From positions 5,446,001 to 5,510,000 of the forward strand of contig NZ_CP036276.1 in assembly GCF_007747995.1 (NCBI RefSeq): a DNA stretch of 64,000 bases. Reading direction: 5' to 3'. Shown in pieces: positions 8,336-16,348 of the stretch (position 1 is the stretch's first letter; each line of letters opens with the position of its first letter). Below the pieces are notes generated by a model. That model was not told where the DNA came from and ran no database searches. It was given only the letters and a program-made list of their open reading frames with translations. Origin of the DNA: Symmachiella dynata (lineage in GTDB: Bacteria; Planctomycetota; Planctomycetia; Planctomycetales; Planctomycetaceae). Both the position numbers and the translations under genes were made by a program.

Positions 8336-8723
8336 CAGTCAACTCCTGGTTTGTTCCAACGTCGTTATTGTGCCGTTCGTGTACGGCAATTCGGGGCGCG
8401 CGTGAAAAACAGTTTTCTCGTACAACACTTCTCCCGGCTCATGAGCCGGACATCATACGGCTGTAGCGACTGGACTGGCAATCAAAGCGGATGGATCCGG
8501 GACAATTCGGCCATTTCACCAGCGATACAGCGGTCGATTGAGGCGAAATCTGAACATTCGTCATGCGGAATTCGGCCCCCAGACATCTTAAATCCCGCCA
8601 AAACTGGCTCAAAACGTCATTTGTTCGGGGTTTCGACGCTGCGAATTGCTCGAAAAATGATTCCCTTTGCCTCAAACAGTCGATAAGATGAAAAAGAGCG
8701 AATCATTTTGTTGGAGCCGGTCT
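8336..8723. other. 388-bp divergent intergenic region
   Basis: Separates the minus-strand FAH gene from the plus-strand FHA gene and so must hold both promoters. I see no further open frame, repeat or convincing RNA structure in it, and no promoter hexamers I would defend. Confidence 0.4.
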
Positions 8724-9233
8724 ATGCCAATCTGTCTTACTCCGCATCTCGACGGAGACCCGATCAAACTGGATAAAGCGATCCTGTTAGTCGGTCGGCA
8801 TCCCAGTTGCGACATTATCTTGGTGTCGAGCCGTAAGGTTTCCCGTATTCATTGTTGCATCGCACAGGCGGGGAACCGTCTGTTGATCCGTGACCTGGGC
8901 AGCACCAATGGCGTTACGGTCAACGGTGCAAACGTTGAAGAATCGGAAATCCACCTGGGTGACGACGTTGTGATCGGCGACTTGAAATTCTTTGTCGGCG
9001 ACGGCTCAGAAAATCGGCAGTCGAAGCACGACAAATCGAACGGGAACGGAAGCTCCGCACCGGTCAAAAAGATGAAGGGGCTCGATTCATCGGAAACTCC
9101 ACTGGTGATCGAACGTGCCAGCGCCGAGGAATATGACATTGTCGAAGACTCAGACGATGAAGTTGACTCCCAGGCCATCGATGGCGAAAATTCGTTCGCG
9201 GAGTTGAGCGACTCGCACGTCGAGCCCGTTTGA
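8724..9233 (+). CDS. FHA-domain protein with acidic C-terminal tail
   Basis: Begins MPICLTPHLDGDPIKLDKA at the ATG at 8724; an in-frame upstream ATG at 8667 would add 19 residues without family similarity. Residues 1-90 form a forkhead-associated domain: LVGRHPSCDIIL, SSRKVSRIHCCI and RDLGSTNGVTVNG carry the Arg, Ser, His and Asn positions that bind phosphothreonine. The remaining 80 residues are low-complexity and very acidic (VEDSDDEVDSQ) with no membrane segment, so it is probably a cytoplasmic adaptor for Ser/Thr phosphorylation. A receptor-like kinase lies 2 kb downstream, separated by an opposite-strand gene. Confidence 0.85.
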   Translation: MPICLTPHLDGDPIKLDKAILLVGRHPSCDIILVSSRKVSRIHCCIAQAGNRLLIRDLGSTNGVTVNGANVEESEIHLGDDVVIGDLKFFVGDGSENRQSKHDKSNGNGSSAPVKKMKGLDSSETPLVIERASAEEYDIVEDSDDEVDSQAIDGENSFAELSDSHVEPV

Positions 9234-10685: not shown

Positions 10686-11210
10686 GGATACGTTTGCTCC
10701 CCGCTTGTGTGCCGCATCCGAGTCCCTCTCAGAGGCCGTTTCTGGATACCAACAGTTTACCCGATTTTCTCAACATGCGACAGTTTTTAATGGCTGTAAA
10801 GTCATCTCCCACCCAGATCGCACCGTAGTTTGTCACAAAATCCAATCTGTCCTTATCGAAATCATAGAGACCCCAACCGCTAAAGACACCCCAGGAGCGC
10901 CAGAGGCTCGTGCGCTCCAAAGAACGTTGCTCGTTCACTTGACCATTGTCGCAGACGACCGACAATTCACTGACAGCGGCGTGGGAATTCTGTCTACAAG
11001 TCGTTTCAAAACCCTCTGACGTGTCACGCAACCAATTGTATTATGGACCCCTGAACAGGCGCAACCGGGTTTTGAAACTGGTCTAGCAACGACAACTTGA
11101 TTTTGTTTTGGCTAGAATAGCAGGCTGTTGGCTAGAATCCCGGCTGTGCTCGACCTATCCTCAACCAACGCGTTCGATTTTGTGAAACCCGCAATGATGT
11201 CAATTTGTTC
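10686..11210. other. 525-bp intergenic region with a hairpin and the second 76-bp element
   Basis: Lies between two divergent genes. It contains a 7-bp stem hairpin (GGAGCGC 10894-10900 / GCGCTCC 10912-10918) and the 76-bp repeat at 11003-11078. A 100-codon minus-strand frame (10729-11031) runs from the repeat through the hairpin; I do not recognise it and do not call it a gene. Confidence 0.5.
11003..11078. repeat. 76-bp dispersed hairpin element, copy 2
   Basis: Terminal inverted repeats GTTTCAAAACCC (11003-11014) and GGGTTTTGAAAC (11067-11078), the same length as the copy at 1387-1462. Sequence just inside both ends is conserved (CTCTGACG at the left, CAACC at the right) and the centre is not. 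It lies about 130 bp upstream of the kinase gene. Confidence 0.85.
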
Positions 11211-13439
11211 ATGACCGATAGCCCCAGCCGACCGATCTCAACCGAGCCCGATGATACGCTCCGGCAGGATGCTGAGAGTTCCGATCGGTCCGCGCGACTC
11301 AGTCGGCGGAAATTGCGTCCGCCGGGAGACGTGCCGGGTTACAAAATCAACCTCTGCCTGGGTGAAGGAGCCTACGGATCGGTCTGGCTAGCTGGGGAGC
11401 AAAACACCGGCAAGCAGGTTGCCATCAAATTCTACACGCACCGCGGCGGACTGGATTGGTCGCTGCTGAATCGTGAAGTCGAAAAACTGGCCATGCTGTA
11501 TACGAGCCGCGATATTGTGCGGCTCTATGAAGTCGGCTGGGATGCGCAACCTCCTTACTATGTCATGGAGTACTTGGAAAACGGCTCGTTGGCAGCGCTT
11601 CTTCGGGAAGGACCGTTGTCAGTGACCGAATCGGTCCGTATTGCCGAAGCGGTGTTGCGGGCGCTGGTCCATGCCCATGGCAGCGGGATTTTGCATTGCG
11701 ATATCAAACCGGCCAACGTGCTGCTCGACGGTGACATGCAACCTCGCTTGGCAGATTTTGGTCAGTCGCGGCTGTCAAACTCTCAGGACCCGGCGCTGGG
11801 GACTTTGTTTTACATGGCGCCGGATCAGGCGGATCTGGCGGCGGTGCCTGATGCGCGCTGGGACGTCTACGCGCTCGGCGCGCTGTTGTACCATTGCTTG
11901 TGCGGACACCCACCGTTTCGCACCCCCGAAGTCGAACAAAAAATCCTCGCAGCGGATAGCCTGCGTGAACGATTGGCGGTTTACCGGGGAACGTTACAAT
12001 CCGCCGAGCGGCCCTCGGCACATCGTCGGGTCGCGGGCGTGGATAAACGCTTGGTGCATATCGTGGATCGCTGCCTGGAAATGAATCCCGCGCGGCGTTA
12101 TCCCAATGCGCAGGCCGCCTTGGAAGCATTCAAAGTCCGCGCCAAACAGCGTGCCCGTCGACCGGCGATTGTGATGGGCATCATTGCCCCTTTGCTGCTG
12201 CTGATAGCGCTGGTGCCTTTGGGATTTCAGGCAGGCGACAAGGCGGTGGCCACCTCTGAATCGGCAGTGGTTTTTCAGGCCTCAGAGAACAACAAACTGG
12301 CGGCCAAGGCAACCGCACGGATGTTGGAAAGCGAACTGGTCGGCTTGATCGGCCAATTGCACGGCGCGGCGAGTAATCCAGAATTGGCCGAGGCGATCTA
12401 TCGTGAAGGGGAATTGCCCCAAGACAAACGTTCCCAGCTGGAAGAATTGCTAATAAATTTCCGCCGCCGATACAGTGTCCCGCGAACGCTGAAAGCCCGG
12501 TCACGGACCACAGTCGCCAAAGACGACGAAATCGACTATCTGTTGGATCGCAGTTGGTTTCTCACCAATGCCCAAGGCGTTCAACTGTGGCGTGATCCGC
12601 ATGGCGAGACCATCGACGGTGAATATCATTGGCGCGATTATTTTCACTGGGGCGGCAAACAGCTTCCTAAAACCGTGGACGTCAAAGATGTAAAAACCCA
12701 TTGGGATGAGAAAACATTTCACATCTCCTCTCCCTTCGTCAGTGAAGAGACGAATAGCTACATGGTGGCCATCTCGGTCGTCGTCCGTGATAAAGAGACC
12801 TCGCAACCGCTGGGCGTACTCGCCCGCACCATTGACTTGGGAAAATTGCTCTCCGAAAAAACGCTGGGAGGAGTGCGACGGGTTGCAATGATTGATGGAC
12901 GCAACGGCAAATTTTTGGATCACCCTTTGATGTCTCCCACGCGATTTGAAGGCCTCGACGACGATGAAGTCACGGCCACCATTGAAGACTTGGAACTGAG
13001 TCCTGCGATCCGCGAAAAACTCGCACAGTACCAGCATTCAGAACACCGGACACAAGATGCGGGTGAGATGGATGTGATCATCGAAAACCAACATCGCGAT
13101 CCTGCGGACCGACTTGATCCAGAAGCCGTGAAACGCGGCGACGACCAGCAGCGCTGGTTAGCCGCCTTTGCCCGGGTCCCCGGAACCGACTGGTGGACCG
13201 TTGCCCAGGAGCGGCACACCGAAGCGATTCAACCCGTGCATAAAGTCCAATCGGAATTAATGTTCTATGGCATGATCGGACTGTCGGCGTTTTTTGCGCT
13301 GATTGGCGCACTGTGGTACTTCTTATTACGCGGCGTAAGCAACCGGACAGTCCGTCTCGGCTTGTCGCGATCCCGCCGCGGTCGCAATACCGAAACCGAA
13401 GCATTGTCCGGCAGCGGGAGGAGTTCGTCATTTGACTGA
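11211..13439 (+). CDS. membrane receptor Ser/Thr protein kinase with extracytoplasmic Cache-like sensor
   Basis: A 742-aa Hanks-type kinase if it starts at the ATG at 11211 (a TTG two codons earlier is possible). The kinase domain spans about residues 44-310: GEGAYGSVW, K73 in VAIKFY, catalytic D164 in HCDIKPANVLL, DFG at 182-184. It is a non-RD kinase (HCD instead of HRD) and has APD in place of the APE motif. A membrane helix at about 319-339 leads to a 340-residue extracytoplasmic segment resembling a Cache/PDC sensor (YHWRDYFHWG, ISSPFVSEETNSYMVAISVVVRD, LGVLARTIDLGKLL). A second helix at about 683-706 precedes a short basic tail. The stop overlaps the next gene by 8 bases, so kinase and cyclase are translationally coupled. 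Confidence 0.88.
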   Translation: MTDSPSRPISTEPDDTLRQDAESSDRSARLSRRKLRPPGDVPGYKINLCLGEGAYGSVWLAGEQNTGKQVAIKFYTHRGGLDWSLLNREVEKLAMLYTSRDIVRLYEVGWDAQPPYYVMEYLENGSLAALLREGPLSVTESVRIAEAVLRALVHAHGSGILHCDIKPANVLLDGDMQPRLADFGQSRLSNSQDPALGTLFYMAPDQADLAAVPDARWDVYALGALLYHCLCGHPPFRTPEVEQKILAADSLRERLAVYRGTLQSAERPSAHRRVAGVDKRLVHIVDRCLEMNPARRYPNAQAALEAFKVRAKQRARRPAIVMGIIAPLLLLIALVPLGFQAGDKAVATSESAVVFQASENNKLAAKATARMLESELVGLIGQLHGAASNPELAEAIYREGELPQDKRSQLEELLINFRRRYSVPRTLKARSRTTVAKDDEIDYLLDRSWFLTNAQGVQLWRDPHGETIDGEYHWRDYFHWGGKQLPKTVDVKDVKTHWDEKTFHISSPFVSEETNSYMVAISVVVRDKETSQPLGVLARTIDLGKLLSEKTLGGVRRVAMIDGRNGKFLDHPLMSPTRFEGLDDDEVTATIEDLELSPAIREKLAQYQHSEHRTQDAGEMDVIIENQHRDPADRLDPEAVKRGDDQQRWLAAFARVPGTDWWTVAQERHTEAIQPVHKVQSELMFYGMIGLSAFFALIGALWYFLLRGVSNRTVRLGLSRSRRGRNTETEALSGSGRSSSFD
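13416..13423 (+). promoter_or_regulatory. ribosome binding site that fixes the TTG start of the cyclase
   Basis: GGGAGGAG lies 8 bases before the TTG at 13432, and 20 bases before the first in-frame ATG (13444), too far for that ATG. It sits inside the end of the kinase gene. Confidence 0.75.
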
Positions 13440-15210
13440 GCTAATGGCCGAATGTGCCGAATCCCAAAACCGTGCGACGGTCGTGATCGAATCAGACAAG
13501 CCGCTTGCGGTTGGTCGCGATGAGCAATGTGACTTTGCTATTCCCTGGGATAAATCGATCTCACGGAAACATGTCGAAGTGCGCCTCGTCGGCGAGTGCC
13601 TCCGCGTCCGCAGGTTCGCTGTCGCTGCCAATCCACTGTTCCATCGTGGTGCGCAGGTCGAGTCTTGTGAATTGGAACCGGGCGACCATTTTGTACTGGG
13701 ACACACCACATTCCTATTCAGCGACGCACGGACCCCACGGCTCTCGACTCCCACACAACCGGTGGAAGAGGTCGCCTTTTCACGCGACGACTTGCGGCGG
13801 ATTCAATTTCTCGATGCCGACCGACGCATTGAAGTATTAACACACCTGCCCGATGTAATTTGGGGCGCGCGGACCGATGAAGAATTGTTCGTCCGCCTGA
13901 CAACCACCCTCCTGGCAGGCATTGCCGGAGCTGAAGCGGCTGCGGTCGTTTCGATTGCGGGCGATGAACCGCCGGTGATTGAACATTGGGAGCGTCGTCT
14001 GGAAGTCGCCGGAGAATTTCGTCCCAGCACGCGACTGATCAAGGCGGCCGTGTTGGAGAAAGAGCAAAGCATCCTGCACGTCTGGGAAAGCGAAGAGCAC
14101 CATCAGGCGGATTACACCATCACACAGGAATTTGATTGGGCGTTTTGCACACCGGTCCGTGGCGCTGCCACGCAAGGTTGGGGGCTTTATCTAGCCGGTC
14201 GTTTTGATCGCGCCGCCAATCCCGCCGGACAATTGGATACCAGCGAACAGCAGTTGCGCGGTGATGTCAAATTTGCCGAGTTGATGGCGGAAATTATCAG
14301 CGCAGTGCGGCAGGTCAATCGCCTGGAACGGCAACAGGCCGGTTTGCGACAATTCTTCGCGCCGCGAATTTTGTCATCGTTGGGAGACGGTTTCGACACA
14401 AAAAGCCTCGATCCGCGCGAGTGCGACGTCACCGTGTTATTTTGTGACCTTCGCGGTTTTAGCAAACAGGCCGAAGGAGCCCGCGATGAATTGATCCATC
14501 TCCTCGATCGCGTCAGCCAAGCCTTGGGCGTGATGACGCATCATATTTCCGAACATGGCGGTGTGATCGGCGATTATCAGGGCGATGCGGCGATGGGATT
14601 TTGGGGCTGGCCGGTCGCCACGGATTCGGCGGCACTGGATGCCTGCCGCGCCGCTTTGGGAATTCGCGCTGCCTTTGCTGCGACTGCCGGGAAAAAAGAT
14701 CACGCGTTGGCCGATTTCCAGATGGGGATCGGCATCGCACACGGCAGAGCGGTGGCGGGGAAAATCGGGACCACCAACCATGTCAAAGTCACCGTTTTTG
14801 GGCCGGTCGTCAACCTCGCCAGCCGGCTGGAAGGGATGACCAAACAGCTCCGCGTTCCGATTCTGTTGGATGAAGCATTGGTAGAGCGAATCCAAGACGA
14901 ATTGACTCCCGAAGAGGGCCGCATTCGCAAATTGGCCCGCGTGTTACCCTACGGGATGCAGACCCCGGTGACGGTCAGTGAATTGCTCCCCTCCGAAGCC
15001 GCCTTTCCGGAACTCACCGCGGCGCATCTGGAATCGTATGAACATGCGGTGACCAATTTTCTGGCCGGGGATTGGGAACAGTCGTATCGGGCGCTGCACG
15101 ACATCCCGCCCAGCGACCGGGCACAGGACTTTCTCAACGTCCTGATTGCCCAGCACAATCGTCAAGCCCCGGGCGATTGGGACGGCATCGTCAAACTGCC
15201 CAGTAAATAG
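13432..15210 (+). CDS. FHA-GAF-class III nucleotide cyclase
   Basis: A 592-aa three-domain protein. Residues about 1-105 are an FHA domain (VGRDEQCDFAIPWDKSISRKH). Residues about 125-290 look like a GAF sensor. Residues about 330-525 are a class III nucleotidyl cyclase: VTVLFCDLRGFSK with metal Asp 339, GDAAMGF with metal Asp 385, and VVNLASRLEG with the transition-state Asn and Arg. The residues that select adenine or guanine are unusual: the Lys expected before the second metal motif reads Asp, and the Asp of the GDxVN motif reads Pro (FGPVVN). So a cyclase fold is clear, but substrate and even activity are open. It starts at a TTG overlapping the kinase stop; the FHA domain may bind the phosphorylated kinase. 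Confidence 0.88.
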   Translation: MTELMAECAESQNRATVVIESDKPLAVGRDEQCDFAIPWDKSISRKHVEVRLVGECLRVRRFAVAANPLFHRGAQVESCELEPGDHFVLGHTTFLFSDARTPRLSTPTQPVEEVAFSRDDLRRIQFLDADRRIEVLTHLPDVIWGARTDEELFVRLTTTLLAGIAGAEAAAVVSIAGDEPPVIEHWERRLEVAGEFRPSTRLIKAAVLEKEQSILHVWESEEHHQADYTITQEFDWAFCTPVRGAATQGWGLYLAGRFDRAANPAGQLDTSEQQLRGDVKFAELMAEIISAVRQVNRLERQQAGLRQFFAPRILSSLGDGFDTKSLDPRECDVTVLFCDLRGFSKQAEGARDELIHLLDRVSQALGVMTHHISEHGGVIGDYQGDAAMGFWGWPVATDSAALDACRAALGIRAAFAATAGKKDHALADFQMGIGIAHGRAVAGKIGTTNHVKVTVFGPVVNLASRLEGMTKQLRVPILLDEALVERIQDELTPEEGRIRKLARVLPYGMQTPVTVSELLPSEAAFPELTAAHLESYEHAVTNFLAGDWEQSYRALHDIPPSDRAQDFLNVLIAQHNRQAPGDWDGIVKLPSK

Positions 15211-15692: not shown

Positions 15693-15763
15693 CCGATCGC
15701 CGTGCCGGTCGGAGAGCGTGCCGATCTTCCGGGTCCTTGCGGTTGTTTGAGGCTGATCACCTA

Positions 15764-16348
15764 ATGGTTAATGAAATTGGGGCCCGCCGGTCCAAAGTAC
15801 TCATTATCGACGACGACCCGCTCTTCCGCAGCATGCTGGCTTCGGTCATGCGCGAAAAATACATCGTGTTCGTCGCAGCCGACGGAGAAGAAGGATACCG
15901 CAAGGCGCTGGCCCATCCCCCCCATGCCATCATTCTCGATATCCGGATGCCGGGGTGGGATGGTTTAAAAACGTTGCGGACCATTCGCCGCAATGAACTC
16001 CTGGCGGAATTGCCGGTGATGATCCTCTCCAGCGATGCCAGCCGTGAAACCGTTATTGCCGCGATTCATTCAGGCGCCACCGACTACCTGATCAAAACCA
16101 GCTTTACCAGAAAAGAGTTTCACAGCAAATTGACGCGGCTGATCGAAACCGCGCGCGACCGCGCCCTGGACCGGCCCTCGCGACGACGCCTTGAAGAAGC
16201 TTGGTCGCACGTCCGGCGCGTCCCCCCTGCCACGCCCATTCCCCCCCGAGAAAATTCCCCCCCAGCGGCCGCCGAATTGCCCGAGACCGTTAACACACCC
16301 AGTGCTGACAATTCACAACTCCAGGAAATCATGGATGCCTGGGAGTAG
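15764..16348 (+). CDS. single-domain response regulator with Pro-rich tail
   Basis: A 194-aa protein from the ATG at 15764. Residues 11-130 form a receiver domain: acidic pocket D16/D17, phospho-acceptor D59 in IILDIRMPGWDG, conserved Ser in ILSSDA, and Lys in DYLIKTSF. Instead of a DNA-binding output domain it has a 60-residue basic, then proline-rich tail (RRVPPATPIPPRENSPP). It is therefore more likely to act by protein contact than as a transcription factor. No histidine kinase is encoded nearby; the closest sensors are the kinase and cyclase genes upstream. Confidence 0.85.
   Translation: MVNEIGARRSKVLIIDDDPLFRSMLASVMREKYIVFVAADGEEGYRKALAHPPHAIILDIRMPGWDGLKTLRTIRRNELLAELPVMILSSDASRETVIAAIHSGATDYLIKTSFTRKEFHSKLTRLIETARDRALDRPSRRRLEEAWSHVRRVPPATPIPPRENSPPAAAELPETVNTPSADNSQLQEIMDAWE

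Follow-up and report, generated by a model that had tools for sequence, protein, structure and literature searches.

Planctomycete FHA-GAF class III cyclases with a base pocket resembling that of guanylyl cyclases: a possible preference for GTP

The window analysed here is a stretch of 64,000 nucleotides from the planctomycete Symmachiella dynata (contig NZ_CP036276.1, positions 5,446,001 to 5,510,000 of the forward strand). It contains a gene for a class III nucleotide cyclase that follows an FHA domain and a GAF-like domain (Table 1). The gene overlaps by 8 bases an upstream gene for a Ser/Thr kinase. The product belongs to a clade in which the Lys that reads the base in adenylyl cyclases is replaced by Asp. 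The preferred interpretation, held with a probability of about 0.5, is that of a kinase-coupled class III cyclase which would, we infer, prefer GTP over ATP and form cyclic GMP (cGMP). The domains, the residues, the clade, the selection and, in part of the family, the gene linkage can be read from the sequences. Among the literature matches listed (open-licence titles and the starts of abstracts), none concerned a planctomycete FHA-GAF cyclase or an Asp at the Lys position.

Table 1. Features of the cyclase locus, with positions counted from the first base of the window; conservation is given for non-redundant rows of the clade.
Feature	Position	Strand	Evidence or conservation
FHA-GAF-class III cyclase gene	13432..15210	+	Open reading frame, 592 aa, TTG start
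FHA domain, residues 23-99	13498..13728	+	Pfam FHA E 5e-6; Yop-YscD_cpl 7e-7, below its cut-off
Divergent GAF-fold domain (predicted), about residues 115-260	13774..14211	+	AlphaFold2 and structural matches
Long helix before the cyclase (predicted), residues 268-306	14233..14349	+	AlphaFold2 model
Class III cyclase domain, about residues 325-520	14404..14991	+	Pfam Guanylate_cyc E 3e-12; structural matches
Metal Asp D339	14446..14448	+	104/104
Base-reading Lys position, D381	14572..14574	+	104/104
Position of mammalian I940, Q383	14578..14580	+	Q 56, H 39, L 9 of 104
Metal Asp D385	14584..14586	+	104/104
Position of mammalian Q1016, K452	14785..14787	+	K in 97/104
True partner position (mammalian D1018), T454	14791..14793	+	T 98, G 3, S 2, D 1 of 104
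P458, not the partner residue	14803..14805	+	Pro in 103/104
Transition-state N461 and R465	14812..14826	+	104/104 each
Ser/Thr kinase with dCache-like part	11205..13439	+	Pkinase 5e-43; dCache_1 2e-10, 41.1 bits, cut-off 45
Possible ribosome-binding site (AGGAG) for the cyclase	13419..13423	+	Read from sequence

The catalytic residues of the cyclase are kept. A preliminary description of this stretch, made from its letters alone, had reported that both metal-binding aspartates and the transition-state Asn and Arg are kept, and D339, D385, N461 and R465 are indeed present. The counts in Table 1 refer to the clade of the window, in which 118 rows were reduced to 104 by merging rows 97% alike; the odds given here were unchanged by the merging. 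The predicted fold of the domain is also that of a cyclase, since all 50 listed structural entries are cyclases with Z scores of 17-21, and the match to 8qfg reaches Z 21.0 over 202 residues. Compared with a relative of the same genus that is 96% identical (L004), the nonsynonymous (dN) and synonymous (dS) divergences are 0.017 and 0.461 for the whole gene and 0.0045 and 0.450 for the cyclase domain. The cyclase domain is under strong purifying selection. A comparison with L005 was left unused, as dS was saturated (4.8 for the whole gene) and the FHA domain gave no value. The class III cyclase of the window is very probably active. A different state is seen in the relative L153, which keeps the FGP motif and has lost both metal aspartates (now Arg and Glu), the Asn and D381; it is likely a dead cyclase.

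The residue that reads the base lies four positions before the second metal Asp, and the alignments with solved cyclases reach that Asp without a gap, which places Asp381 at the Lys position, as previously described. The Asp is no chance occurrence: in an unmerged alignment it was present in 112 of 112 rows, three of which are the window's own gene, some genomes being represented twice. Part of this agreement is expected because the rows were retrieved by similarity to the window. With Asp381 in place of the Lys of canonical adenylyl cyclases, the pocket is not of the usual adenine-reading type, and on this point too the preliminary description was right. Its second residue, the Pro of the motif FGPVVN, was taken for the partner of the Lys and has to be corrected. 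This Pro exists (P458) but stands three residues before the transition-state Asn, whereas the partner stands seven before it, as in mammalian adenylyl cyclase (D1018/N1025) and soluble guanylyl cyclase (C541/N548) (PMC3591389), in Ma1120 (D157/A164; PMC4215837) and in XC_0250 (A150/L157; PMC3770947). Since the Asn is N461, the partner position is T454. A role of the Pro in substrate selection is not supported at this position, and the adenylyl cyclase CyaC likewise has a Pro three residues before the Asn. The Asp clade is independent of which partner position is tabulated.

Q383 and K452 are further changes in the pocket, beyond the two positions named earlier. The mammalian counterpart of Q383, I940, has been placed in the base pocket by docking (PMC12637298). 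The preliminary description had counted a Lys elsewhere in the same pocket as evidence against its own reading, and in part such a Lys is found in K452, at the mammalian Q1016 site, where guanylyl cyclases have Arg (PMC1326233); a contact of K452 with the base is putative. For comparison, 54 planctomycete cyclases that keep the base-reading Lys (Lys-type) have Thr (39), Asp (13) or Ala (2) as the partner residue. At position 383 they carry Ile, Val, Met or Leu in 51 cases, Gly in two and Glu in one, so that a polar residue occurs in 1/54, and at position 452 Asp or Glu (34), Lys or Arg (2) or a gap (6). The sister sub-clade of the window's relatives has Lys452 in 17 of its 22 rows. Compared with ordinary cyclases, positions 381 and 452 thus tend to have exchanged their charges. 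In a tree built without the pocket columns there were four independent changes at 381, and position 452 changed along with them in 3.9 of 4 on average and never in the opposite direction. Six relatives (L143-L148) have Gly381, Arg383, Val452 and Asp454, a base and an acid at other places; this rebuilt base-acid pair suggests that positions 381, 383, 452 and 454 change as a set.

The phylogenetic analysis was based on an alignment of 211 rows, of which 207 were counted after the duplicates L002, L003, L118 and L119 had been dropped. The first tree was thinned to 104 rows, and a later tree held 101 thinned rows, without the pocket columns and with Cya2 and CyaC added. All rows with Asp381 are gathered by a single branch (44 rows, support 99/93), which also takes in rows with Gly, Ser, Thr or Cys at that site. 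Outside this Asp clade are L198 (Asn) and Cya2 (Glu), the rows nearest to Cya2 being Lys-type. The window's half of the clade comprises 22 rows, five of them from the Gly-type group, with a support of 100/100, and the sister half comprises another 22 (100/94 in the earlier tree). A tree had been proposed as the check on whether the unusual residues mark a clade with FHA domains; the Asp381 rows do form one clade, and within the window's sub-clade a Pfam FHA match is present in 50 of the 62 scanned members and in none of three more distant ones. Membership of the window's clade was assigned on similarity to the window, by which these rows had also been retrieved, and only a thinned subset entered the trees. 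Seven rows that were long or degenerate (L163, L209, L180, L123, L153, L216 and L174) are absent from the later trees and counts. In the first tree, L163, L174 and L209, which have neither Lys nor Asp, lie outside the Asp clade, and L123 (Asp) and L153 (Ser) lie inside it. L222, represented by its second and distant cyclase, was left out of the covariation test and of the tree without pocket columns. No member of the Asp clade was seen outside Planctomycetota in a thin sample, in which three of the 367 plasmid records with a match were read (H1, H4 and H7, all Lys) and the two matching phage records were not. L110, on a contig bearing the name Candidatus Nealsonbacteria, is a copy of the usual planctomycete kind, and the contig is probably mis-binned. 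Taken together, the cyclase is real, conserved and catalytically plausible, and it belongs to a clade of class III cyclases that combines a guanylyl-like acid-base pocket with an FHA-GAF architecture.

The FHA domain claimed earlier is supported by a Pfam match, and its core is well kept in the family, with G28 in 62/62 members, R29 in 61/62, and S44, H47 and N67 in 60/62 each. In FHA domains, the core residues Gly/Arg, Ser, His and Asn bind phospho-Thr. The GAF domain could be upheld as a predicted fold, not as a sequence match, since none of the 62 scanned family members gave a Pfam GAF match at E 0.01. When the middle stretch was modelled alone by AlphaFold2 (59 sequences, predicted local distance difference test score (pLDDT) 86.1), the model resembled mostly GAF, phytochrome-GAF and fRMsr chains, with a best Z of 10.9 over 118-119 residues. 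Only two chains, 3p01 and 4g3v, were found by Foldseek at E<=0.001, and the lower-ranked matches include a few unrelated chains (T4 antiholin/holin). The model therefore points to a GAF-like domain between the FHA and the cyclase, a divergent fold without a family-level sequence match; in the sister sub-clade, a Pfam GAF match is present in 6/7 scanned proteins. The whole-protein model has a pLDDT of 86.7 and a predicted template modelling score of 0.60. A small separate FHA-domain protein is encoded at 8667-9233 of the window, some 2 kb ahead of the gene for the kinase.

Immediately upstream of the cyclase gene, a kinase or the C-terminal part of one is found in 34 of the 84 non-redundant loci that leave room for 900 bases (39/96 before near-copies were merged). 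Pfam kinases were found in 13/41 adjacent upstream genes tested, which come from 37 distinct loci, and each of the 25 upstream-neighbour families listed occurs once, except two kinase models and dCache_1. As the adjacency is present in part of the loci, the linkage is common and not obligatory. The gene downstream of the cyclase (15737-16348 of the window) encodes a response regulator, and a similar one stands beside the cyclase in L004, L013-L018, L020, L024 and L025. Among 39 same-strand downstream neighbours scanned (of 41 genes; loci L033-L112, near-copies not merged), nine encode a DUF218 protein.

The source genome, a single contig of 7.77 Mb, has two Guanylate_cyc matches at E<=0.001. 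The second is a response-regulator cyclase (L001) whose two reading positions hold Lys and Asp. The window gene is matched at E<=1e-20 in 90 of 99 genomes, its own included, and 78 of the 90 reach 1e-50 or better; the weaker matches include Lys-type paralogues. In a survey of 17 of 18 single-contig genomes (G069 left out), seven (G003, G006, G009, G034, G041, G087 and G092) have no Guanylate_cyc match at E 1e-4 other than the gene retrieved by similarity to the window, and since this clade is captured only weakly by the Pfam model, other members may be missed. Five of the seven had their pocket read, and all have D381 and K452, with T454 in four and D454 in L149. Matches to domains binding cyclic nucleotide monophosphates (cNMP) are present in 16 of the 17 genomes. 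In the source genome, four genes have cNMP-binding domains, none of them inside the window, and they give nothing decisive on a receptor. One of them (L114, 1405-2712) fuses a cyclic-nucleotide-binding domain to a Ser/Thr kinase, like the cyclic-nucleotide-dependent kinases, and is a candidate receptor.

The acid at 381, the base at 452 and the neutral Thr at 454 form a layout that resembles that of guanylyl cyclases. The main determinant of guanine specificity is an acid in place of the Lys. In RhGC, guanine is contacted mainly by the Glu found there, through N1 and N2, and the partner contributes little (PMC7384201). A single change, E488K, turned Cya2 of Synechocystis into an adenylyl cyclase (PMC5995499), and the reverse change K101E raised the guanylyl activity of Ma1120 (PMC4215837). 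Tucker et al. listed five differences between adenylyl and guanylyl cyclases: K938E, Q1016R, D1018C, I1019L and W1020F (cited in PMC1326233). At the first three positions the window has D, K and T, Cya2 has E, K and G, and the sister sub-clade has mostly D, K and G, on which basis GTP leads among the possible substrates. Position 381 is acidic as in guanylyl cyclases, but Asp stands where Glu is normal; position 452 is basic, as at their Q1016 site, a listed difference that is dispensable for the switch. At the D1018 position guanylyl cyclases have Cys, Ser, Ala or Gly, and Thr454 is likewise non-acidic but is usual in Lys-type cyclases too. Cya2 (2w01) is also the best PDB profile match of the window cyclase (E 8e-22). 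In the proposed mechanism, an outside ligand sensed by the Cache-like part would lead the upstream kinase to autophosphorylate, and the FHA domain may dock on a phospho-threonine of this kinase. The GAF domain and the long helix would then control how active the cyclase dimer is. In the pocket, D381 would take hydrogen bonds from guanine N1 and N2, like the Glu of guanylyl cyclases, and K452 would balance its charge through a putative contact.

Several observations weigh against a preference for GTP. The cited guanylyl cyclases carry Glu and not the shorter Asp, and the only assayed Asp-bearing cyclase met in this work, AnPycC, makes cyclic UMP (cUMP). Only K938E and D1018C were needed for the switch, so the 452 position was dispensable (cited in PMC1326233), and in a simulation of human soluble guanylyl cyclase the Arg at that position bonds E526 of the other subunit and not E473 (PMC7289801). 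Thr454 is shared with most Lys-type cyclases (39/54). A shorter side chain at the 383 position has been argued to be necessary for guanine (PMC12637298), and Gln or His there is not a guanylyl feature. Ma1120 K101E still had a higher kcat/Km for ATP (PMC4215837), and by structure several adenylyl cyclases outrank Cya2, which is 18th with Z 18.4. For these reasons the probability is held at 0.5. The covariation test has only four pairs (median p 0.125), and fewer than six pairs cannot reach 0.05; seven of the 104 rows keep D381 without K452 (V 4, S 1, T 1, A 1). The structure models are monomers. No receptor was linked to the cyclase, and the complete genome G034 (locus L018), in which this cyclase is the sole Guanylate_cyc match, has no cNMP-binding match at E 1e-6, which speaks against a universal CRP-type receptor.

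The same residues can be read in other ways. The enzyme could be a non-canonical adenylyl cyclase that takes ATP as its main substrate, recognising it by contacts of the backbone or in a flipped orientation of the base; D381 and K452 would then form a mere salt bridge. T454, the usual partner of Lys-type cyclases, would fit such an enzyme, the top structural matches are mostly adenylyl cyclases, and mycobacterial cyclases without the canonical pair make cyclic AMP. Ma1120 K101E can be quoted on both sides, as it kept the higher kcat/Km for ATP and loss of the Lys lowered ATP turnover about 20-fold (PMC4215837). An acid in all 104 relatives suggests a positive role for D381, and the E/K exchange alone sets specificity in Cya2 (PMC5995499), so that ATP as the main substrate appears rather unlikely. 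A catalytically dead signalling scaffold, the inactive module of the preliminary description, is very improbable. Base-reading residues that depart from the canonical ones would agree with it. It is disfavoured by the metal and transition-state residues, kept in all 104 rows, and by the strong selection on the domain; the dead-looking L153 lost both metal aspartates, the Asn and D381 together.

A pyrimidine messenger, cyclic CMP (cCMP) or cUMP, made outside phage defence is also conceivable, though quite unlikely. Pycsar cyclases read the base, among others, at the positions four and two before the metal Asp, with R142 and Q144 in EaPycC, K104 in AnPycC and D94 in BcPycC (PMC11224242). Q383 is polar at minus 2 like D94, K104 and Q144, which is the case in just 1/54 Lys-type cyclases, and the Asp at minus 4 is shared with the uridylate cyclase AnPycC; the structure 8jsz, with Asp at minus 4, is taken to be AnPycC since its residues fit. 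Alignment to solved cyclases places D94 of BcPycC at minus 2 and an Ala where the Lys would stand, and an assignment of D94 to the Lys position was rejected on this ground. Against a pyrimidine product, the transition-state Arg is kept where the two solved Pycsar cyclases aligned have Lys, the minus-2 residue of the sister sub-clade is Ile, Val or Leu in 18/22, and the two flanking annotated genes of the window encode a kinase and a response regulator. Neither TIR nor cNMP-binding families occur among the neighbour families listed for the relatives, which are 25 of 29 upstream and 25 of 46 downstream. A PADLOC match to PycC (PDLC00734, E 2e-19) was rejected as evidence for Pycsar, as the model joins cNMP-binding and cyclase parts. 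It is unspecific, matching also the Lys-type cyclase of the same genome, more weakly (8e-12), and three cNMP-binding places, and PycC assignments made from it need care. In a related version, which seems hardly likely, the planctomycete kinase-coupled family with its pocket of Asp381, Gln/His383, Lys452 and Thr454 would read a base other than that of ATP, possibly a pyrimidine, and give a housekeeping cCMP/cUMP or mixed signal and no phage-defence alarm.

If the preference for GTP is true, the formation of cGMP would be common among the relatives of the window (78/99 genomes at 1e-50 or better). Bacterial cGMP signalling has been shown in few organisms, Rhodospirillum centenum and Xanthomonas among them (PMC3770947). 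Phosphorylation on Ser/Thr, received by an FHA domain, would be coupled to a cyclic nucleotide. The acid-base-neutral pocket would have been reached independently of Cya2, as a natural test of substrate change in class III cyclases. The pocket groups D/Q-H/K/T, D/I/K/G and G/R/V/D at 381/383/452/454 offer a ready series for studying the base-reading code.

Among known systems, the PycC cyclases of Pycsar (AnPycC, EaPycC and BcPycC) share with the window the class III fold and a polar minus-2 residue, and AnPycC also the Asp at minus 4. The window differs by Arg465, which is Lys in BcPycC and AnPycC, by its FHA-GAF architecture and by a flanking pair without a Pycsar effector (TIR or cNMP-binding match). 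The kept Arg465 and the kinase and response-regulator neighbours speak against counting this cyclase as a Pycsar member. A likely Pycsar pair does occur in another Planctomycetota genome (L163, 1492-3203), where a PycC near BcPycC (7r65, E 2e-42) stands with a cNMP-binding TIR effector. CyaC of Spirulina platensis has Thr at the partner position and Pro three residues before the Asn, as the window does, and differs at the base-reading site, where it has Lys, and at 452, where it has Asp. Adenylyl cyclases with a Thr partner, such as CyaC, are presumably class IIIb.

The sister sub-clade (L124-L133, L135-L137, L139-L142, L159, L160, L162, L203 and L217) shares Asp381 (18/22) and Lys452 with the window, and differs by Gly454 in 22/22, by the aliphatic residue at 383 and by an FHA match in only 1/7 scanned proteins. 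Cya2 is alike in fold (Z 18.4), in the acid at the Lys site, in Lys452 and in the non-acidic residue at 454. It differs in having Glu, Gly and Met at 381, 454 and 383, where the window has Asp, Thr and Gln, and in its CHASE2 sensor. As Cya2 falls outside the Asp clade once the pocket columns are removed, the likeness between the two pockets is probably convergent.

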